DNA from: Phycisphaerales bacterium
GTDB lineage: Bacteria > Planctomycetota > Phycisphaerae > Phycisphaerales > SM1A02
NCBI GenBank assembly: GCA_022447205.1
Contig: JAKVBQ010000002.1
Location: 71,573-135,572 of the forward strand
Direction of reading: 5' to 3'
DNA length: 64,000 bases
Positions 5,613 to 56,313 of the stretch are shown here, piece by piece. How positions within the stretch are numbered: position 1 is the first letter of the stretch; the number at the start of each line of letters is the position of its first letter. The notes beneath the pieces are model-generated. The model saw nothing but the letters and a program-made list of their open reading frames with translations, was not told where the DNA came from and did no database searches. Made by a program: the position numbers and the translations under genes.

Positions 5613-6586
5613 CCGCACGCATCGTGGTGACCACGCATCTTCCAGGTGATCCCGTGGGACTCCTTCGAGCACATCCCGTCGGCCGTGATGCGGAGATCGT
5701 CCACCTCGATGTGACCCGCAAGCCGACGCGGGAGGAACTCCTCGATGCGGTCCGTGGTGCGGACGCGATCCTTCCACACATACCGGATCGAATCGACGCG
5801 GAAGTGATGGACGCCGCCGGCAGCGGACTGAAGATCGTCTCGAACTACGGAGTCGGCTACGACAACATCGACACCGAGGCTGCGCGTCAGCGAGGGGTGA
5901 TCGTCACGAACACCCCCGATGTCCTGACCGACGCGACGGCGGACGTCGCCTGGATGCTCATCCTGAATGCCGCAAGGGGAATGCAGAGAGCCAGCCGGGA
6001 ACTTCACGAAGGAACATGGACCGGCTGGCATCCGGCCCAGTACGTGGGCAAGGATCTGGTCGGCAGGACCCTGCTCGTCGTCGGCATGGGACGGATCGGA
6101 CTCGCGGTGGCGAGAAGAGCGGTCGGCTGGCGCATGCGAATCCTCTACACCGCCCGGTCGCGGAAGACGGAGGCGGAGAAGGCGCCGGTCAATGCCGTTC
6201 GTGTCGAACTCGATGAAGGACTGGCCGAAGCGGATGTCGTCAGCCTCAATTGCCCGCTGACCGAGGACACGCGTCACCTGATCGACGCACGACGCCTGGG
6301 AATCATGAAGAACGGCGCGGTGCTCGTGAACACCGCGCGAGGAGCGGTGATCGACGAGGCGGCGCTTGCGGAGGCGCTCGAACAGGGTGTGATTCACGCC
6401 GCCGGCCTCGATGTCTTCGAACGGGAACCGGAAGTCCACCCCGGGATCCTCGGGCAGGAGCGAGCGACGATCCTTCCTCACATCGGAAGCGGGACCGAGG
6501 ATTCGAGGAACGGCATGACCGAAATCGCCGTCAGGAACCTCCTCTCCGGGCTTCTGGGGGAGGATCCTCCGAATCGGGTGGCGTGA
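5609..6586 (+). CDS. D-isomer-specific 2-hydroxyacid dehydrogenase (glyoxylate/hydroxypyruvate reductase-like)
   Basis: 325 residues. The NAD(P)-binding GMGRIG is at about 159-164, and the catalytic Arg-Glu-His set is visible as R244 (NTARG), E273 (FEREPEV) and H291 (LPHIGS). The LKIVSNYGVGYDNID segment and the overall order match the glyoxylate/hydroxypyruvate reductase branch, which reduces 2-keto acids with NAD(P)H in the cytoplasm. The exact substrate is not determined. It begins at GTG 5609, overlapping the previous stop (GTGA). Confidence 0.85.
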   Translation: MTARIVVTTHLPGDPVGLLRAHPVGRDAEIVHLDVTRKPTREELLDAVRGADAILPHIPDRIDAEVMDAAGSGLKIVSNYGVGYDNIDTEAARQRGVIVTNTPDVLTDATADVAWMLILNAARGMQRASRELHEGTWTGWHPAQYVGKDLVGRTLLVVGMGRIGLAVARRAVGWRMRILYTARSRKTEAEKAPVNAVRVELDEGLAEADVVSLNCPLTEDTRHLIDARRLGIMKNGAVLVNTARGAVIDEAALAEALEQGVIHAAGLDVFEREPEVHPGILGQERATILPHIGSGTEDSRNGMTEIAVRNLLSGLLGEDPPNRVA

Positions 6587-6663
6587 GAACCTCTTCTGGA
6601 AAACATGAACGGCAGCGTGTTGAAGACTAGAATGAGGAGGCACCCAAGGAAGAGTGAACGCCC

Positions 6664-7506
6664 ATGATGAACCAGAGCCTCAATCATTCCATGATCGACG
6701 ATGGTGAAGCCAGCGTCGCCCAGGACTATGCCGACAACTTCGGGAAGCCGGGATTCGATGATCCCAGCAACATGTACATCGCACAGCGATACGAGGGGTA
6801 CACCGCGGAGAACCAGGAGACCTGGCAGAGGCTCTACGACCAACAGCACGAGTACCTGACCGACCACGCTTCGAAGGTCTATCTCGACGGTGCCGAGGCG
6901 ATCAAGCTGGTTCGCGAGCACATCCCCCACCTCGAGGGTGAGCAGAGCATCAACTCCTATCTCGGTCAGCTCACCGGCTGGCAGTCGAAGCCGGTCCCCG
7001 GCTACCTGCCGGCGAAGGCGTTCTTCGCCTGTCTCTCGCGACGGGAGTTCCCGACCACGATCGTGATCCGACCACTGGAATCGATCAACTACCTCCCGGA
7101 ACCGGACATCTTCCACGACATCTACGGCCATGTCCCGCTCCATGCCGATCCGGTCTTCGCGGACTTCCTGCAGACCTACGGCAAGGCCGCACTGTTGACC
7201 GATGATCCGGAGCACACCGAACGCCTGGCACGTCTCTTCTGGTTCACGGTCGAATTCGGCCTGATCCAGGAGGCCGGCGAGCTCAAGCTCTACGGGTCCG
7301 GACTGATCTCCTCCCCGGGCGAGAGCCGCCATGCCCTCGACAGCCCGGAGGTCGAGCGGCGACCGTTCGACCTCGAACAGGTCTGCAGCACGAGCTTCGA
7401 GATCGATCACTACCAGCCGATCCTCTACGTGCTGGACTCCTTCGAGCAGCTCCGCGACGGAATGACCACCTACGCGGAACGGATCCTCGAGAGCGTCAAC
7501 GCCTGA
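6664..7506 (+). CDS. phhA: phenylalanine 4-monooxygenase
   Basis: 280 residues, the size of the bacterial single-domain enzyme. It hydroxylates phenylalanine to tyrosine using O2, ferrous iron and a pterin cofactor. The 2-His-1-Glu iron site is seen as H151 and H156 (FHDIYGH) and E197 (FTVEFGL). Other matching segments are TGWQSKPVPGYLP and the YGSGLISSPGE loop. A TAGAAT element lies about 30 nt upstream and GGAAGAG lies before the ATG pair, so this gene has a normal leader. No pterin-carbinolamine dehydratase gene is next to it. Confidence 0.95.
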   Translation: MMNQSLNHSMIDDGEASVAQDYADNFGKPGFDDPSNMYIAQRYEGYTAENQETWQRLYDQQHEYLTDHASKVYLDGAEAIKLVREHIPHLEGEQSINSYLGQLTGWQSKPVPGYLPAKAFFACLSRREFPTTIVIRPLESINYLPEPDIFHDIYGHVPLHADPVFADFLQTYGKAALLTDDPEHTERLARLFWFTVEFGLIQEAGELKLYGSGLISSPGESRHALDSPEVERRPFDLEQVCSTSFEIDHYQPILYVLDSFEQLRDGMTTYAERILESVNA

Positions 7507-7610
7507 CAAGCTGGACATCATCACCGAACAACATGCCCCGCGGATCCTCGCCTTCACTTCCATCGTGAGGGTGGAGACGGTGTAGAATCAGCCCCCCAAG
7601 GAGACGCAAG

Positions 7611-8831
7611 ATGGCCAGGAAAGCACCCTCGATCAAGACCAGCGAGTACCAGAAGCGACGTGCCAAGGTGCTCAAGTCCTTGAAGGATTCGGTCGGCATC
7701 ATCTTTGCGGGTGATGGCGGAGGAGAGCTGACCAGCAAATGGCGGCCTGACCCGAATTTCGAATACCTCACGGGCATCACGGACGAGCCCGGTGCGGCGA
7801 TCGTGTTCGATCCCACCCACCCGGTGCCGGCGAAGCAGGTCGTCCTCTTCCTCAAGCCCCTCGATCCGGAAGTGGAGAAGTGGGACGGCGCTCGTGACTT
7901 CATCGATTCAGCCATGGTCAAGAAGTACGGGATCCAGACGATCTTCAGGACCAGCAGGATCCCACTGGTCATGCGGATCGCGGCGCAGAAGTCCAGGAAG
8001 CTGGCCTGCCTCCATCAATTCGCGCATCACGAGGCTCCGGTCTCCCCTGATCTCGCGGTCTTCCAGAAGGTCTGCCAGAGGATCCCGGGGGTGAGCATCG
8101 TCGATCGAACGGAGCTCCTCGCGAAGATGAGATCGATCAAGTCCGGTGCGGAACGCGATTGCATGAAGGAAGCGGTCCGGATCAGCGCGCTCGGCTACGA
8201 CGAGGTCCTCAGGACGATGAAGCCGGGCATGACGGAGTTCGACATCCAGGAGACGCTGGAACACGCCTATCGTGCCAACGGATCCAGGGGACCCGCATAC
8301 AACACGATCGCCGGTTCGGGATTCAACGGAACGGTCCTGCACTACGGCGCCAACGACCAGGTCATGAAGGACGGCGACCTGATCGTCATCGATTCGGGTG
8401 CGGACTATCGAGGCTACGCGGCGGACGTCACCAGGACCTACCCGGTCAATGGCAGGTTCACCAAGCGGCAGAAGGAGATCTACTCGATCGTCCTGATGGC
8501 ACTCGAAGCCTCGATACGGAAGGTCAAGGCGGGGTGCACGTTCGAACAGATCGACAAGGCCTCCCGAGACATCATCAAGAAGGCCGGTTACGGCGACTAC
8601 TTCATCCACGGCATCGGGCACCACCTCGGCATCGAGGTCCACGACATCACCCCCCAGGGTCCGTTGAAGGAAGGCGCGGTGATCACGATCGAACCGGGGA
8701 TCTACATTCCCGACGAGAACCTCGGTGTCAGGATCGAGGACGACATCGTGGTCACAAAGACGGGACACATCAACCTGAGTCGGTCGATCCCGAAGTCCAT
8801 AGCCGCCATCGAGAAGTCGATGAACGCCTGA
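7611..8831 (+). CDS. pepP: M24-family Xaa-Pro aminopeptidase
   Basis: 406 residues with an N-terminal creatinase-like domain (1 to about 170) and a C-terminal pita-bread catalytic domain. The dinuclear metal ligands are all seen: D261 (IDSGADY), D272 (ADVTRTYP), H337 (GIGHHLG), E361 (TIEPGIY) and E376 (VRIEDD). Such enzymes release an N-terminal residue preceding proline. The HGIGHHLGIEVHD segment is typical of the PepP branch. No signal peptide is present, so it should be cytoplasmic. AAGGAG sits 7 nt before the ATG, and TAGAAT about 23 nt upstream is a plausible -10. Confidence 0.9.
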   Translation: MARKAPSIKTSEYQKRRAKVLKSLKDSVGIIFAGDGGGELTSKWRPDPNFEYLTGITDEPGAAIVFDPTHPVPAKQVVLFLKPLDPEVEKWDGARDFIDSAMVKKYGIQTIFRTSRIPLVMRIAAQKSRKLACLHQFAHHEAPVSPDLAVFQKVCQRIPGVSIVDRTELLAKMRSIKSGAERDCMKEAVRISALGYDEVLRTMKPGMTEFDIQETLEHAYRANGSRGPAYNTIAGSGFNGTVLHYGANDQVMKDGDLIVIDSGADYRGYAADVTRTYPVNGRFTKRQKEIYSIVLMALEASIRKVKAGCTFEQIDKASRDIIKKAGYGDYFIHGIGHHLGIEVHDITPQGPLKEGAVITIEPGIYIPDENLGVRIEDDIVVTKTGHINLSRSIPKSIAAIEKSMNA

Positions 8832-48698: not shown

Positions 48699-48822
48699 CC
48701 CGAATGATGTTCATTCGGGTGGGCCACGGTGGCCGCCCCTCCGCCGTGGCCTTTCCTCCGACGCCGAGGGAGTGGTTGCCCCGGCGGCACCAGAACGGCC
48801 CGGCTCAGCCACCTGAGCCGGG
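48699..48822 (+). terminator. three tandem hairpins between htrA and the ebo genes
   Basis: Three stems follow the htrA stop: CCCGAATGA-TGT-TCATTCGGG (48699-48719); GGCCACGG ... CCGTGGCC (48722-48751), followed by TTTCCTCC; and CCCGGCTCAG-CCAC-CTGAGCCGGG (48799-48822). The second has a T-tract on the plus strand and is the best terminator for htrA. The first has TTTATTT after it only on the minus strand, so it could stop antisense transcription. Confidence 0.7.
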
Positions 48823-48853
48823 CTGTTCGCCTACCCTAGTAAGGAACCACCCA

Positions 48854-50062
48854 GTGCCCCCCCACATGACCACCCCACCCAGACAAGCAGATGTCGCCGC
48901 CGATGGCGGGAACCCCGGGTCGATCCGCGCACCATTCGGTGTCTCGTGGACCCATCGCCTGGAGTTCACCAACCGGGCACTCGATGCCGGCAACACGATC
49001 CTGCACGACGTGATCGGGGAGGAAAACTCCCGAACCGGTGACCGCGGGCTCCTTGTCGTCGTCGACAAGGGAGTCAGTCGAGGCAACCCGGACCTGCTCG
49101 AAGAACTGCAGGGTTACTTCGGTGCTCATGATGACCTCCCGGAACTTCGCGAGATCATCGAGGCGGACGGTGGCGAACAGTGCAAGAACCACGGCGGTGT
49201 GGTCGAGTCCGTGCTGAAGGGGATCGACACCAATCGCATCTGCCGCAAGTCGACGGTCCTCGTGATCGGCGGAGGCGCGATGCTGGACGCCGCCGGATAC
49301 GCGGCGGCGACCGCACATCGCGGGGTCAGGTTGATCAGGATGCCCAGCACCGTGCTCTCACAGTGCGACTCGGGTGTCGGCGTGAAGAACGGCATCAACC
49401 ACTTCAACAAGAAGAACTTCCTGGGCACGTTCGCACCGCCCACCGCGGTGGTCTGCGATCTCCACCTCCTGAAGAGCCTTGATGACGAGGAATGGCACTG
49501 CGGGTTGAGTGAGATCGTCAAGATCGCCCTCCTCAAGGACCCGAAACTCTTCGAGACGATCGAGGCGAATCTCGACGGAATCCGGAACCGGATGGATGAT
49601 CCATCGCACGGGATCATCGAAAGATCGGCGAAGCTCCACCTGCGACACATCACGGAGGGCGGTGATCCGTTCGAACTGACGGAGGCGCGCCCGCTCGACT
49701 TCGGACACTGGTCCGCACACAAGCTCGAGCAGATGACCGGATTCGAGCTTCGCCATGGGGAAGCCGTGGCGATCGGCGTCGCCCTCGACATGACGTACTC
49801 GGGTCTCGTCGGCATCGTCGATGAAGGGCTCGTTCGCAGGACTCTCTCGATGCTCGAAGCACTGGGACTGCCGACGTCGCACGCCGCACTGCAACGTACC
49901 GATGAACTGACCGAGGGGATCGAGGAATTCCGCGAGCATCTCGGAGGGGATCTGACGATCTCACTGGTACGCGACGTGGGCGAACCCGTCGACGTCCACG
50001 AAATCGACCAGCCCAAGCTTCGAAAGGCCGTCGAACTGCTTCTCGAACGCAGCTCCGGATGA
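48854..50062 (+). CDS. eboD: EboD-type sugar-phosphate cyclase (3-dehydroquinate-synthase-like)
   Basis: 402 residues from GTG 48854 (AAGGAA 7 nt upstream; ATG 48866 is an alternative). The NAD-binding GGGAMLDAAGYAAATAHRG and the MPSTVLSQCDSGVGVKNGINHFNKKNFLGTFAPP signature are those of the EboD branch rather than housekeeping AroB. The metal ligands appear as E in CGLSEIVK, H in FGHWSAHKLE and H in RHGEAVAIG. It should make a cyclitol from a sugar phosphate. Its neighbours downstream are all ebo genes. It does not replace AroB with certainty: the shikimate-pathway DHQ synthase is not seen in the window. Confidence 0.82.
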   Translation: MPPHMTTPPRQADVAADGGNPGSIRAPFGVSWTHRLEFTNRALDAGNTILHDVIGEENSRTGDRGLLVVVDKGVSRGNPDLLEELQGYFGAHDDLPELREIIEADGGEQCKNHGGVVESVLKGIDTNRICRKSTVLVIGGGAMLDAAGYAAATAHRGVRLIRMPSTVLSQCDSGVGVKNGINHFNKKNFLGTFAPPTAVVCDLHLLKSLDDEEWHCGLSEIVKIALLKDPKLFETIEANLDGIRNRMDDPSHGIIERSAKLHLRHITEGGDPFELTEARPLDFGHWSAHKLEQMTGFELRHGEAVAIGVALDMTYSGLVGIVDEGLVRRTLSMLEALGLPTSHAALQRTDELTEGIEEFREHLGGDLTISLVRDVGEPVDVHEIDQPKLRKAVELLLERSSG

Positions 50063-50125: not shown

Positions 50126-50425
50126 ATGACAGACGCCAACTGCCCAATGGACCGCGCAGCGGTCATAGACCGGTACTTCCTCGAACATCGGGCGAAGCTG
50201 ATCGACCTTGCGGCCTTCCTGGATCGCGTGGATCGATCTGGTGACGGAACGGTCGATGACTTCAGGATCACCGCCTTTCGCAAGGCGATCGAGGAACTCC
50301 TGGAGTCCGGCCCGGGTCGGGCCCGAAGAGTACAGGAAGCCTTCAGCGATCATTCGACCGAACCGATCGAGCAGGCCCCCATGAAGGGTGCGCTCGGCGC
50401 ATTCAACCCCAACGACCAGGCTTGA
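50126..50425 (+). CDS. 99-aa protein of the ebo cluster, hypothetical
   Basis: 99 residues, mostly helical ([50 protein letters not shown]) and ending in [30 protein letters not shown] and the [14 protein letters not shown] segment look conserved and acid-rich, but I cannot name the family. It is placed between eboD and eboB, where a member of a metabolite pathway or a small partner would sit. The 64-nt gap after eboD and its own TAGACT suggest separate transcription. It is much shorter than EboA, so it is not simply that protein. Confidence 0.6.
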
Positions 50426-50450
50426 TCCAGGCGAACGAAACGGATTCATC

Positions 50451-51254
50451 GTGTACATCGACCCCCACGTCCACATGGTCAGCCGAACGACCGACGACTA
50501 CGAGCGGATGGCGCTCGCAGGATGCGTCGCGATCACCGAGCCGGCGTTCTGGGCGGGCTACGACCGGTCGAGTGCGCAGGGGTTCTTCGACTACTTCCGG
50601 ACCCTGACCGACTACGAACCCAGGCGGGCGCAGCAGTACGGGATCGCACACCACACCTGGTTGTGCATCAACCCGAAGGAAGCGGAGGACCTGGGACTGG
50701 CGAGAGAGGTCCTCGAGATCATCCCTGACTTCCTCGAAAAGCCGAACGTCCTCGGGATCGGTGAGATCGGCCTCAACAAGAACTCCCGGAACGAACTCAG
50801 GATCTTCGAGGAGCATGTCGACCTCGCGAAGCGACACGACCAGATGATCCTGATCCACACCCCCCACCTCGAGGACAAGCTCAAGGGGACGAAGCTGATC
50901 CTTGATGCACTCGAGAATGCGGAAGTCGATCCCGGCAGGGTCCTGGTCGATCATGTCGAGGAGCACACCGTCGAACTTGTCCTCGATCGCGGGTTCTGGG
51001 CGGGCATGACCCTCTACCCCGACACGAAGTGCACGCCACAACGGGCGGCGGACATCTTCGAGATCTACGGACAGGAACGGATCTGGATCAACAGCGCCGG
51101 CGACTGGGGTCCGAGCGATCCTCTTGCGGTGCCGAAGTGCCAGCAGGAACTCAGGGCGCGCGGTCACTTCGAGGAGATGATCCGCAAGGTGTCCTACGAC
51201 AACCCACTCGGGTTCCTGTCGCAGAGCGGGAAGTTCCGTACCTCGGTCGAATAG
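50451..51254 (+). CDS. eboB: EboB-type TatD-like metal-dependent hydrolase
   Basis: 267 residues from GTG 50451 (MYIDPHVHM). A TatD-like TIM barrel: HVH in DPHVHM, E in [10 protein letters not shown] in LIHTPH, H in LVDHVEEHT, and D in [10 protein letters not shown] near the end. These are the metal ligands and catalytic residue of TatD/amidohydrolases. The EboB branch is found in the ebo operons of cyanobacteria and other bacteria, where its substrate is not known. It is followed after 13 nt by eboE. Confidence 0.8.
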
Positions 51255-51267
51255 GAACGGCTTGCCC

Positions 51268-52401
51268 ATGCAGGACCAGTCACTCCAGGTCGGCTACTGC
51301 ACCAACGTGCACGCGGGGAATTCACTCGAGGAGACGTTGCAGAATCTCGAGCGATACGCCGTTGCAGTCGCCCGATCCCTCGGGAACGACCGGCTCGGCA
51401 TCGGGCTCTGGCTGCCGGAGCGCACGGCGCGTGAAGTCATCGAGAACGAGGGTGCGAGACGACTCCGGGATCGACTGGATGCGATGGGTCTGCATGTCTT
51501 CACGCTGAACGGATTCCCCCAGGGGAACTTCCACGCCGAAGTGGTCAAGCATGCGGTATACGAACCGCAATGGAACACGGCGGAACGTTTCGAGTACACC
51601 ATGCACCTGGCAGGCATACTCGCGGAGCTCCTTCCGGACGACCTCCAGGAGGGTTCGATCTCCACCCTCCCCCTCGGCTGGCGCGCAGGCTTCAAGGGAC
51701 TCGATGACGCGGTGAACCGGTTGACCGCCGCCGCGGAGGAACTTGAACGGCTCGAGGAGCGGACCGGAAGACTGATCCACGTGGACCTTGAACCGGAACC
51801 GGGCTGCGTGCTGGACACCGCCGGTGATGTCATTGAACTGTTCGAGCGACTTCCGGAATCCACCCGGCGACACCTCCGAGTGTGCCACGACGTCTGTCAC
51901 TCCGCGGTCATGTTCGAACCACAGCAGGCGGCGATCGAGGCCTATCACTCCGCAGGGATCTCCGTCGGCAAGATCCAGGTCTCGGCCTGCCCGGAACTTG
52001 ATTTCGACGGACTCGAGGAAGACCAGCGCGCCGAGGCGATGGCGCAGCTCCGATCATTCGTCGAACCGAAGTACCTGCACCAGACGACGGTCAGGAACAC
52101 AGGAGGCGAGAGCAGCTTCCACCAGGATCTGCCGGAGGCACTCGAGGCGCACGGACCGAGCGGCCGATGGCGGGTGCATTTCCATGTCCCGGTCTTCGCG
52201 AAGTCACTCGGGCTGATCGACACGACCCAGGATCAGATCAAGGCATGCTTCGATGCATTCGGGGGAGACCTTCCCATGCTCGAGGTCGAGACCTACGCCT
52301 GGGGCGTGCTGCCGGGCGGTCTGTTCAAGGAGGATCTTGCGGGTGGTATCGCCGAGGAACTCCGTTTCACACGCAGCCTGCTCGCCGGGGATCGACCATG
52401 A
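51268..52401 (+). CDS. eboE: EboE-type metabolite-traffic protein (xylose-isomerase-like TIM barrel)
   Basis: 377 residues, ATG 51268 with AGGAACGG about 7 nt upstream. A TIM barrel of the AP-endonuclease/xylose-isomerase type: YCTNVHAGNSLEETLQNL, LGIGLWLPERTAREVIE, FTLNGFPQGNFHAEVVK, a Glu/His pair in VDLEPEPGC and RVCHDVCHS, VKYLHQTTVRNTGG-like and FHVPVFAKSLG. The order of these segments is that of EboE. Metal-dependent isomerase-like chemistry is possible, but the reaction is not established. Its stop overlaps the eboC start (ATGA). Confidence 0.8.
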   Translation: MQDQSLQVGYCTNVHAGNSLEETLQNLERYAVAVARSLGNDRLGIGLWLPERTAREVIENEGARRLRDRLDAMGLHVFTLNGFPQGNFHAEVVKHAVYEPQWNTAERFEYTMHLAGILAELLPDDLQEGSISTLPLGWRAGFKGLDDAVNRLTAAAEELERLEERTGRLIHVDLEPEPGCVLDTAGDVIELFERLPESTRRHLRVCHDVCHSAVMFEPQQAAIEAYHSAGISVGKIQVSACPELDFDGLEEDQRAEAMAQLRSFVEPKYLHQTTVRNTGGESSFHQDLPEALEAHGPSGRWRVHFHVPVFAKSLGLIDTTQDQIKACFDAFGGDLPMLEVETYAWGVLPGGLFKEDLAGGIAEELRFTRSLLAGDRP

Positions 52402-53576
52402 CACCCCGGACGAAGGCCTGGCTCGAGATCACCCGCGCATCCAACCTCCCCACGGTACTCGGCGGGGCACTGGTCACGTTGACGGCGGTGGAATCCATGC
52501 GATGGCAGTTCTTCGTCAACGCGATGTCTGGCGCCTGGTCTCCACTCATCACGCTGACGGGCGCGATCGCCTTGTTCTACATGGCGGGGTTCATCCTGAA
52601 TGATGTGTTCGACCGAACCATCGACCGTGAAGAACGTCCGGGCAGGCCCATTCCATCAGGTCGGATCGCGGCCCAGACCGCTGTCAAGGTCGCGGTCGTC
52701 ATGGTGACGGCGGGTCTGCTCCTCGTGGCGGATGCGGATCAGCTCCTCGGTACGGGCGACCTTCCTCGTGGCATCCCGACCGGACTCGCAGCCGCGGTCC
52801 TCCTCGTCATCCTCATCGTCCTCTACAACCGGTCCCACCTCACCAGCAGCTGGACCGTCTTCCTCATGGGCGGATGTCGGGCCATGGTGTACGTCACGTG
52901 CCTCCTGGCAGCGGCGGAATCCACCAGTACGCTCGCCGTGGAATGGGATCGATACACATCCCTCAACGGCATGGTCTACTGGCCGTTCCTCCCGTTCATC
53001 ATCGGCATCTTCCTGTACGTCGCGGGCTTCAGTCGGATCGCCCGCGGCGAGGTCGCGGATCCGGGCAACGAACGCTTCTGCTACCAATGCGGATTCCCCT
53101 GCCCCACTGATGCGACCACCTGCTCGGAATGCGGCATTGGATTCGATGCGGACCGACTCGAGCGTTCCAGTCGACCACCCATGAAGCGGTCACTCGAGAA
53201 CCTGTGTCTGGCGAGCACCTTCCTCCCGTCCGCCCTGCTGCTCCTGCTCGGCTGCTACTGGTTCGCGGAGAACGTGTACTTCGCACGGTCCATCACGAAC
53301 GATGAATTCTGGACGTACTTCGCACCGATCATGACCAACATCCTCGCGAGCATCGTCGTGGCGCTGCTCACGATCGGATGGCTGATCGTCGCGACCATGC
53401 GCTATCGGTCGGATCGAACCAGGCCGACTCGTTCGATCCTGATGTGGATCGCGGCATTCCCGTTGATCGATGCGAACCTGGCGGTGCACATGCAGTTACC
53501 CTTGTGGACGTCGTTGGCCTGTCTCGGCCTCTTCTTCGTCACCGTGTGGGGACACCGACGGATCGCGGGAACCTGA
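52398..53576 (+). CDS. eboC: EboC-type UbiA-family prenyltransferase with inserted zinc ribbon
   Basis: 392 residues with about eight membrane helices. The first Asp-rich motif is NDVFDRTIDREERPGRPIPSG (68-88), which binds prenyl diphosphate through Mg2+. In the cytoplasmic-side loop after IARGE there is an insert with CYQC (228-231), an extra Cys at 235 and CSEC (242-245), a CxxC-CxxC zinc ribbon of the planctomycete kind. The second UbiA Asp motif is not clear. The EboC branch is expected to transfer a prenyl group or flip a related molecule. The zinc ribbon is unusual and may serve regulation or partner binding. It is translationally coupled to eboE. Confidence 0.75.
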   Translation: MTPRTKAWLEITRASNLPTVLGGALVTLTAVESMRWQFFVNAMSGAWSPLITLTGAIALFYMAGFILNDVFDRTIDREERPGRPIPSGRIAAQTAVKVAVVMVTAGLLLVADADQLLGTGDLPRGIPTGLAAAVLLVILIVLYNRSHLTSSWTVFLMGGCRAMVYVTCLLAAAESTSTLAVEWDRYTSLNGMVYWPFLPFIIGIFLYVAGFSRIARGEVADPGNERFCYQCGFPCPTDATTCSECGIGFDADRLERSSRPPMKRSLENLCLASTFLPSALLLLLGCYWFAENVYFARSITNDEFWTYFAPIMTNILASIVVALLTIGWLIVATMRYRSDRTRPTRSILMWIAAFPLIDANLAVHMQLPLWTSLACLGLFFVTVWGHRRIAGT

Positions 53577-53582
53577 AACACC

Positions 53583-54941
53583 ATGAACCGAGTCGCCGTT
53601 CTCAATGTCGTGGCACTCTCCCCGAACCTGATCGGGGAACACACCCCGGCGATCAAGGCCCTTGCCGATCGATCCGGTGGCGTGCACACGATGTCGACCA
53701 CGCTGCCCGCGGTGACGACGACCGTCCAGGCCTCGATGCTCACGGGTGCGCCGGCCTCCGAACACGGAATCGTCGGCAACGGGTGGTACGACCGGACCGA
53801 AGGCCAGGTCAAGTTCTGGAAGCAGAGCAACAAGCTGGTGCAGGCGGATCCGGTCTGGCGCACCGCGCGTGAACGGGATCCCGACTTCACCTGTGCGAAC
53901 ATCTGCTGGTGGTACGCGATGAATTCCGACGTGGACACCTGGGTGACACCACGTCCGATCTATCGCGCCAACGGCCGCAAGGTGCCGGACTGCCTCACCA
54001 GGCCGGGGTCACTTCGTGATCGTCTCCAGGCCAGACACGGGACGTTCCCCCTCTTCAGGTTCTGGGGGCCGGGAGCGAACATCGAATCGACGCGCTGGAT
54101 CACGAACGCCGCACTCGACGTCGAGGAGACGTGCAAGCCGACACTGCAGCTGGTCTACCTGCCGCACCTGGACTACTGCCTCCAGAAGCTCGGCCCCGGA
54201 CACCCGGAGATCCCGAACCACCTGCGCGAGGTCGATGCCGAAGTCGCACGACTGGTCGAGCGGTTCGACCGGGAAGGGGTCCGCGTGATCCTGGTGAGTG
54301 AATACGGGATCGAACCGGTCACCCGCGGAGTCGCCCTGAACCGGATCCTCCGGGAGCATGGCCATCTCGAACTGCGGGAGGAGCTCGGCCGGGAGATGCT
54401 GGTTCCGGACGAATGTCGGGCCCTTGCGATCGCGGATCACCAGATCGCCCATGTCTACGTTCGATGCGATTCGGAGATCGAGTCGATCCGTGCACTGCTC
54501 GAAGGCGTCGACGGCGTCGAACGCGTCCTCGGCAGGGACGAACTCGAGGAAGCGGGGCTCGCGCACGAACGCAGCGGTGACCTCGTCGCGGTCAGCACCG
54601 CAGACGCCTGGTTCACCTACGACTGGTGGCTTGATGAGCGACGTGCACCGGACTACGCACGAACCGTCGACATCCACGCCAAGCCCGGGTACGACCCGCG
54701 AGAACTCTTCATGAGCAGTCGACTCAGGGCCGCGTGGAAGCTCTTCCTGATGAAGATGGGGATCCGCACCCTGCTCGACGTGATCCCACTCGACGATCGG
54801 CTGGTGCGTGGTTCCCACGGTCGAACGACACCCGCTCCGGGACACGAGGCGGTCCTGATCGCGAACGGGGCTTCCGACCAGCAGACCCCGATTCCATGCA
54901 CCATGGTCCGGGACCTGATCCTCCAGTCGATCTTCGATTGA
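53583..54941 (+). CDS. eboF: EboF-type alkaline-phosphatase-superfamily phosphodiesterase
   Basis: 452 residues. The superfamily's nucleophile Thr lies in LPAVTTTVQASMLTGAPASEHGIVGNGWYDR, and metal-binding segments are seen as LPHLDYCLQKLG and VSEYGIEPVTRG (the SEYG form of the usual D/H segment). NVVALSPNLIGEHTP is the N-terminal strand, where the first metal Asp normally is replaced by N/V, as in other EboF proteins. It is probably a nucleotide pyrophosphatase/phosphodiesterase-like enzyme. No signal peptide was seen. It closes the ebo cluster, 6 nt after eboC. Confidence 0.78.
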   Translation: MNRVAVLNVVALSPNLIGEHTPAIKALADRSGGVHTMSTTLPAVTTTVQASMLTGAPASEHGIVGNGWYDRTEGQVKFWKQSNKLVQADPVWRTARERDPDFTCANICWWYAMNSDVDTWVTPRPIYRANGRKVPDCLTRPGSLRDRLQARHGTFPLFRFWGPGANIESTRWITNAALDVEETCKPTLQLVYLPHLDYCLQKLGPGHPEIPNHLREVDAEVARLVERFDREGVRVILVSEYGIEPVTRGVALNRILREHGHLELREELGREMLVPDECRALAIADHQIAHVYVRCDSEIESIRALLEGVDGVERVLGRDELEEAGLAHERSGDLVAVSTADAWFTYDWWLDERRAPDYARTVDIHAKPGYDPRELFMSSRLRAAWKLFLMKMGIRTLLDVIPLDDRLVRGSHGRTTPAPGHEAVLIANGASDQQTPIPCTMVRDLILQSIFD

Positions 54942-54974: not shown

Positions 54975-55739
54975 ATGCGCGTGTTTCTCGGTATCTGCCT
55001 GTGCATCATCCTTGCCGGAGGCATCGTCATCGTCGTCGATGACGGTGACGGAGCAGGCACCGCATCCCCGCGCAGCGACAGTTCGAGTCAGACCGCAGCC
55101 GAGGTGGACGAAACTCTGGTGCAGGAATCACGAACGCTCCCGGAAGAGTCCATGCCACCAATGCCGGTCGTCCCGCTGGAGCCAGCCCCGGTGCCGAATC
55201 CGGAGCCCGAACCGGAACCAGAACCGGAATCGGAACCGGAACCGACCGAAGCGAAGACTCCGAAACGGTCGATTGTCGAGCGGATCGATGACAGATCGAT
55301 CCGATTGGGCGGCAAGTACATCCTGCGAGGCAATGGCACCGAACGTGATCCCTACACGATCTCCTGGGAACTGCTTGCCAGCGCACGCTCGACCATCGAC
55401 GCCGCCAAGGGAGAACTCGATCCACCCGCCCACATCGAACTCCTCGATGGTGCCTGGGTGCGACTCGACGGGTACTACTCCTCTCCCCTCCTCGAGGAGA
55501 CCGTGGATGAGGTGCTGCTCACCTTGAACCGCTGGGACGGCTGCTGCATCGGGCTTCCCCCCACTCCCTTCGACTGCATCGAGACCGGACTTCGGAAGCC
55601 GATCAACATGAGAAGTCGGCACCTGGTCCGATTCGGTACCGTCACGGGCCGCATGAAAGTGCGCCCCTTCGCAATCGGGAACTGGTTGATGGGGCTCTAC
55701 CAGCTTGAAGATGCGACACTTGACATGGGATCCACATGA
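54975..55739 (+). CDS. exported or anchored protein with Pro-Glu-rich linker and DUF3299-like domain
   Basis: 254 residues. An N-terminal anchor or signal (MRVFLGICLCIILAGGIVIVV) is followed by an acidic linker with repeated PEPEPEP (about 76-90) and a C-terminal domain of about 140 residues. The domain has VRLDGYYSSPLLEETVDEVLLTL and then a CC-containing WDGCCIGLPPTPFDCIETGL, which matches the DUF3299 family of small periplasmic proteins. Function unknown. It may be transcribed on its own, starting at a TACCCT. Confidence 0.65.
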   Translation: MRVFLGICLCIILAGGIVIVVDDGDGAGTASPRSDSSSQTAAEVDETLVQESRTLPEESMPPMPVVPLEPAPVPNPEPEPEPEPESEPEPTEAKTPKRSIVERIDDRSIRLGGKYILRGNGTERDPYTISWELLASARSTIDAAKGELDPPAHIELLDGAWVRLDGYYSSPLLEETVDEVLLTLNRWDGCCIGLPPTPFDCIETGLRKPINMRSRHLVRFGTVTGRMKVRPFAIGNWLMGLYQLEDATLDMGST

Positions 55740-55917: not shown

Positions 55918-56313
55918 ATGATCGAACCCCTGACCGCCATCGCCATCCTCGGCATCGCCGCCCTCCTGGGCGGGATGATGCACCTCATCGTCCCCTACCT
56001 GGGCAAGGCGACCCTGATTGCCTGGCTGCTTCTCGAGGTCGGGCTTTGGAGCTGGTACCTCTGGAAGGGCGGCACGATCTTCAGCTACACCGTCATCGCG
56101 ACGGCGATCCCGGCGGCACTGCTGATCCTGCTGATCGGACTGCCCTTCGAATACCGGCGACGGCGGGAGATCAGGGCAAGAGGACGGGAAGTCCGGAACT
56201 CCGGAGGTTTTGCCTGCCCGCACTGCGGTTGCATCTATGATCGGGAGCTCGAGGATGACCGATGCCCGGATTGCGGCGGAGCGGTCGGCGGAGCACCCGG
56301 CGTGCTCGGTTGA
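55918..56313 (+). CDS. membrane protein with cytosolic C-terminal zinc ribbon
   Basis: 131 residues. Three hydrophobic segments (about 7-25, 33-49, 58-78) precede a basic stretch (EYRRRREIRARGREVRN) and a small zinc ribbon CPHCGCIYDRELEDDRCPDCG (about 99-119). The zinc ribbon resembles that inserted in EboC. The function is unknown. It lies 32 nt before dus, so it may share a transcript with it. Confidence 0.6.
   Translation: MIEPLTAIAILGIAALLGGMMHLIVPYLGKATLIAWLLLEVGLWSWYLWKGGTIFSYTVIATAIPAALLILLIGLPFEYRRRREIRARGREVRNSGGFACPHCGCIYDRELEDDRCPDCGGAVGGAPGVLG

Follow-up and report, generated by a model that had tools for sequence, protein, structure and literature searches.

The window, a stretch of 64,000 nucleotides from a Phycisphaerales bacterium, carries an ebo-type run of genes in the order eboD-B-E-C-F, the fourth of which encodes a protein of the UbiA prenyltransferase superfamily (Table 1). 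The ATG of this gene overlaps the eboE stop codon by 4 bases (ATGA), which supports the start call. The protein scores 52.9 bits against the Pfam family PF01040, above the cut-off of 34.2, and its top NCBIfam match is NF035940 (EboC), at 73 bits, under the cut-off of 250. EboC-like proteins from Azospirillum and from a Prosthecobacter MAG also score low against this model (92 and 118 bits, both under 250), so the cut-off is narrow. On the basis of its best NCBIfam match and of the gene order, we classify the window protein as EboC-like.

Table 1. Genes and features of the ebo run in the window
Feature	Position	Strand	Evidence
eboD-like, 3-dehydroquinate-synthase-like	48704..50062	+	NCBIfam NF004852, 477 bits (cut-off 333)
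eboB-like TatD-family hydrolase	50388..51254	+	Pfam TatD_DNase, 38.7 bits (cut-off 27)
eboE, TIM barrel	51262..52401	+	NCBIfam NF035939, 410 bits (cut-off 250)
eboC-like UbiA prenyltransferase gene, 392 aa	52398..53576	+	UbiA Pfam PF01040, NCBIfam NF035940, AlphaFold2 model
First Asp-rich motif N68-D69-x2-D72-x3-D76, intact	52599..52625	+	N68, D72, D76, R83 and P84 in 38/38 ribbon EboC; D69 in 28/38
SRIARGE, residues 212-218, degenerate second Asp-rich motif (SxxARxE)	53031..53051	+	Alignment to DGGGP synthase 6m31
Putative zinc-ribbon insert C228-x2-C231-x10-C242-x2-C245-G246	53079..53135	+	Same alignment position in 43/164 EboC-like sequences
eboF-like type I phosphodiesterase	53583..54941	+	Pfam Phosphodiest, 211 bits; adjoins eboC in relatives too

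The genes eboB, eboD, eboE and eboF stand beside eboC, in the order D-B-E-C-F, in the window and in most of its relatives, whether or not EboC carries the cysteine ribbon described below. Published ebo clusters differ in the presence of EboA or EboG, and in three Planctomycetes examined in the same study the ebo genes were reported as not clustered (PMC5133447); the clustered eboD-B-E-C-F genes of Phycisphaerales extend beyond this older statement. EboA was detected in none of the 181 genomes of the window's family, which keep the rest of the cluster; as a positive control, the search did detect it in 7 of 9 other genomes that carry EboC-like genes. The idea that the ribbon replaces EboA was rejected, since all 181 family genomes are without detectable EboA, ribbon or not. 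The run also accommodates other genes. An extra gene, judged by eye to resemble class I glutamine amidotransferases or gamma-glutamyl hydrolases, lies between eboB and eboE at four loci, and predicted lipoprotein-like genes, apparently of one family by eye, lie between eboC and eboF at five, one of which has two such insertions. Downstream of eboF, positions 54975-55739 of the window encode a protein that is rich in Pro and Glu, looks secreted and weakly matches DUF3299; it is kept at this place in many relatives.

The first Asp-rich motif of EboC is intact, and its residues are equally kept in ribbon-bearing and ribbon-less EboC, save for D69, which is a G in one group of genera. A second Asp-rich motif with several Asp was not found in the window protein; SxxARxE holds one acid, as in EboC-like proteins generally. 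The ARxE aligns with KDFEDMEGD, the second Asp-rich motif of archaeal DGGGP synthase, and the single acid, E218, is kept in all 38 ribbon-bearing EboC and in 119 of the 121 ribbon-less ones. As the catalytic residues, D69 aside, are equally kept in both groups, the ribbon is no replacement for the active site. The initial annotation had placed it where UbiA enzymes usually carry the second Asp-rich motif; the position is right, but the ribbon directly follows the motif instead of taking its place. The region after the second motif is highly variable in length, and some members are without the subsequent helix hairpin. Four EboC-like proteins of 232-271 aa have none of the stretch that forms this hairpin elsewhere.

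The insert reads FSRIARGEVADPGNERF-CYQC-GFPCPTDATT-CSEC-GIGF, with C228, C231, C242 and C245 encoded at codons 53079-53132, so that the CxxC-CxxC module announced for the loop after IARGEV is present as CxxC-x10-CxxC. A fifth cysteine of the loop, C235, is shared with a congener, not with the family at large; at 70% identity, this congener also retains the four ribbon cysteines. Shuffling the window EboC yielded the pattern CxxC-x(8-26)-CxxC in 282 of 200,000 sequences (0.14%), and the strict DNA pattern of the ribbon occurs 5 times in the window's genome against 0 for a reversed control; conservation is stronger evidence for the ribbon than either of these counts. Two Pfam zinc-ribbon families match it below their cut-offs, DZR (PF12773) with 15.7 against 27.3 bits and Zn_Ribbon_1 (PF13240) with 10 against 25 bits. 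The ribbon likely binds a metal, which would be zinc.

An AlphaFold2 model of the window EboC (pLDDT 85.1, pTM 0.85) has UbiA-fold proteins, archaeal DGGGP synthase and UbiA, as its top matches in Foldseek and VIA, with VIA Z scores of 21.4 to 6m31 and 20.9 to 4od5. Residues 220-260 are non-helical in the model; helix 194-219 precedes them and helix 261-273 follows, and short strands are formed at 225-227 and 234-236. The loop is modelled with moderate confidence (56-77 over 10-residue blocks), from an alignment drawn from the window and related loci that holds only two other ribbon proteins. The cysteines are thus outside a membrane helix in the model. In UbiA-fold proteins, the cytoplasmic loops CL1-3 make up a cap (PMC10994848). 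The loop in question faces the cytosol in solved UbiA structures and contributes to the cap over the active site, and by homology the ribbon loop would be on the cytosolic side.

How widely the ribbon occurs was assessed in an alignment of 164 EboC-like sequences, of which 159 are EboC-like proteins and 5 are paralogues encoded downstream. They come from the family of the window, from further families in the order and from 80 loci of named genomes. The pattern CxxC-x(8-26)-CxxC is found at one alignment position in about a quarter of the sequences, and the loop cysteines are all-or-none: at least four in 43 sequences, zero in 121, and one to three in none. Carriers are defined by these four cysteines, so what is telling here is that partial sets do not occur. 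Every carrier that could be placed belongs to the window's Phycisphaerales family, and among the loci from named genomes only 2 of 80 have the ribbon, both of them titled Phycisphaerales. A profile of loop plus ribbon, run against 400 genomes of the order, detected 45 genomes at E <= 2e-11, all of the window's family; outside the family the matches were weaker (6e-10 and above), and the frames read were other ribbon proteins. The suspicion of a lineage-specific insert is thereby borne out, although the ribbon is not peculiar to this protein: at least 10 genera of the family carry it, with repeated gain or loss. Since all carriers among the relatives examined belong to one family, the ribbon appears to be an accessory of this lineage on a known enzyme rather than the mark of a novel type of enzyme.

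With the loop left out of the tree, the presence of the ribbon requires about 10 changes, at least four of them forced by starred branches (an unrooted count), and a single origin followed by simple inheritance was rejected for this reason. The closest relative outside the window's genus, locus L124, is without the ribbon, while its own congeners L126-L128 carry it; the absence in L124 is best read as a loss. Many members of the family, L124 among them, have the same operon without the ribbon, which is therefore dispensable.

In one genus (g33), eboC is followed after about 30 bases by a second UbiA-like gene, whose product has lost NDxxDxxxD and E218 and has kept the ribbon in 4 of 4 cases. 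Degenerate UbiA-like paralogues of 349-353 aa, with an intact ribbon and no catalytic Asp motif, were seen at five loci, and the one compared with NCBIfam matched no family. A less decayed pair occurs at locus L145, where a tandem second EboC-like gene (6397-7693 of that locus) has the ribbon and an H in place of E218. The retention of the ribbon by a paralogue without the catalytic motif means that the ribbon is separable from catalysis. This suggests a role in assembly or docking and not in chemistry, as retention in a decayed paralogue is what would be expected of an assembly function.

The ribbon also has counterparts elsewhere. The loop-plus-ribbon profile found matches at E <= 1e-5 in 286 of the 400 genomes of the order, and in several of the ribbon proteins read the ribbon adjoins hydrophobic stretches. 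One of them is encoded in the window itself, at 55918-56313: this small membrane protein carries a CPHC-CPDC ribbon after hydrophobic segments, in agreement with the resemblance to ribbons on other membrane proteins of the lineage that had been noted at the outset. At four other loci its gene is likewise kept close to the ebo cluster and to dus. As helix-adjoining ribbons are common across the order, the EboC ribbon is probably a local module transplanted from the order's ribbon pool.

We favor, with a probability of about 0.55, the reading that the window encodes an EboC-like prenyltransferase with a Zn(Cys)4 knuckle, restricted to one family as sampled, which follows the degenerate second motif, holds structural zinc and forms a cytosolic knob that docks a partner. 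Most likely, the ribbon binds one zinc of structural role and, in this form, would make a rigid knob on the cap, beside the entrance to the EboC active site. The knob could then hold EboC against a partner, which might be a second EboC, the degenerate paralogue or one of the soluble Ebo enzymes passing on substrate. Recruitment of a partner, already proposed in the initial annotation, is plausible and putative, and we infer both the docking role and the identity of the partners named here. In the neighbourhoods read, no gene tracks the presence of the ribbon, since ribbon-plus and ribbon-minus loci share eboD-B-E-C-F; a correlation of the ribbon with other ebo genes was rejected on the same identical order.

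The main rival, a tentative one that we rank well below docking, is that the ribbon fills an insertion-tolerant loop: a stable mini-fold which the lineage had ready-made would close or stabilize a long loop, and no partner would be involved. The very variable length of the region after the motif, with its hairpin absent in some members, the ten or so gains and losses on the tree and the frequency of the module in the order are all in keeping with such a filler, which has more difficulty in accounting for four cysteines that never decay singly and for a ribbon that persists in a paralogue without the catalytic motif. That same paralogue admits a bolder and rather improbable version of docking, in which EboC pairs through the ribbon with the dead, ribbon-bearing UbiA paralogue next door, as found in some genera; the two would make up a heteromer, either a membrane enzyme or a translocation complex, and the ribbon would be what assembles an Ebo complex peculiar to the lineage. 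More doubtful still is a regulatory sensor, in which zinc release or thiol oxidation would open or shut the cap and make the activity of EboC depend on redox state or on the supply of zinc. Cys4 knuckles are generally redox-sensitive and this one lies directly after the motif, in a cap loop, but relatives in the same operon context do without it and the neighbourhood gives no hint of redox control. An iron site that passes electrons, as in rubredoxin, is very unlikely: although a pair of CxxC(G) knuckles also fits the rubredoxin pattern, the spacing between them is short in comparison, no redox partner is encoded nearby, and the weak profile matches, all below cut-off, are to zinc ribbons (DZR and Zn_Ribbon_1). 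Chance cysteines without a metal site, which shuffling of the protein would allow at a frequency of about 0.0014, are already refuted by conservation, with 43 sequences bearing the ribbon at one alignment position and no partial sets.

The ebo cluster is widespread, though little has been learned about what it makes and the complex it forms; a knob on EboC that is likely metal-bound, all-or-none and separable from catalysis would be a handle for pulling down partners, and the natural pairs with and without the ribbon within one genus (L124 against L126-L128) lend themselves to a clean comparison. The case is also one of a mini-fold borne in the loop of an enzyme, in a lineage where the mini-fold is common. 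In accordance with the initial annotation, no described EboC with a ribbon was found, nor any such UbiA protein, in the non-subscription literature searched; the one text match that joins UbiA and zinc ribbon (PMC12419801) is reportedly a survey of another superfamily.

Among known systems, the nearest are the UbiA prenyltransferase described from the ebo cluster of Nostoc, EboC (PMC6282210), and its Maribacter homologue UbiA-297, which farnesylates 8-hydroxyquinoline-2-carboxylic acid (8-HQA) (PMC9235831). The window protein shares with EboC/UbiA-297 the UbiA family, the first Asp-rich motif, the operon partners D, B, E and F and the best NCBIfam match. It differs in its length, which exceeds the 299 residues of UbiA-297 by about 90, in its ribbon insert after the second motif, in the failure to detect EboA in its family and in an NF035940 score far under the curated cut-off, a trait of other diverged EboC-like proteins as well. 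Archaeal DGGGP synthase (6m31, 7bpu) and archaeal UbiA (4od4, 4tq3) share its fold (VIA Z 16-21) and, unlike it, have a canonical second Asp-rich motif and no ribbon. A precedent for docking is offered by the UBIAD1-HMGCR complex (8djk; VIA Z 17.3), in which a UbiA-fold protein docks a partner; UBIAD1 is not known to have a zinc ribbon. The ribbon itself is most like those found beside membrane helices in Phycisphaerales, for example in the protein encoded at 55918 in the window and in proteins from loci L204, L207, L209 and L211, which have the form CxxC-x(8-14)-CxxC and usually end in CPEC; these are carried by small membrane proteins of unknown function, whereas the ribbon of EboC lies inside an enzyme.
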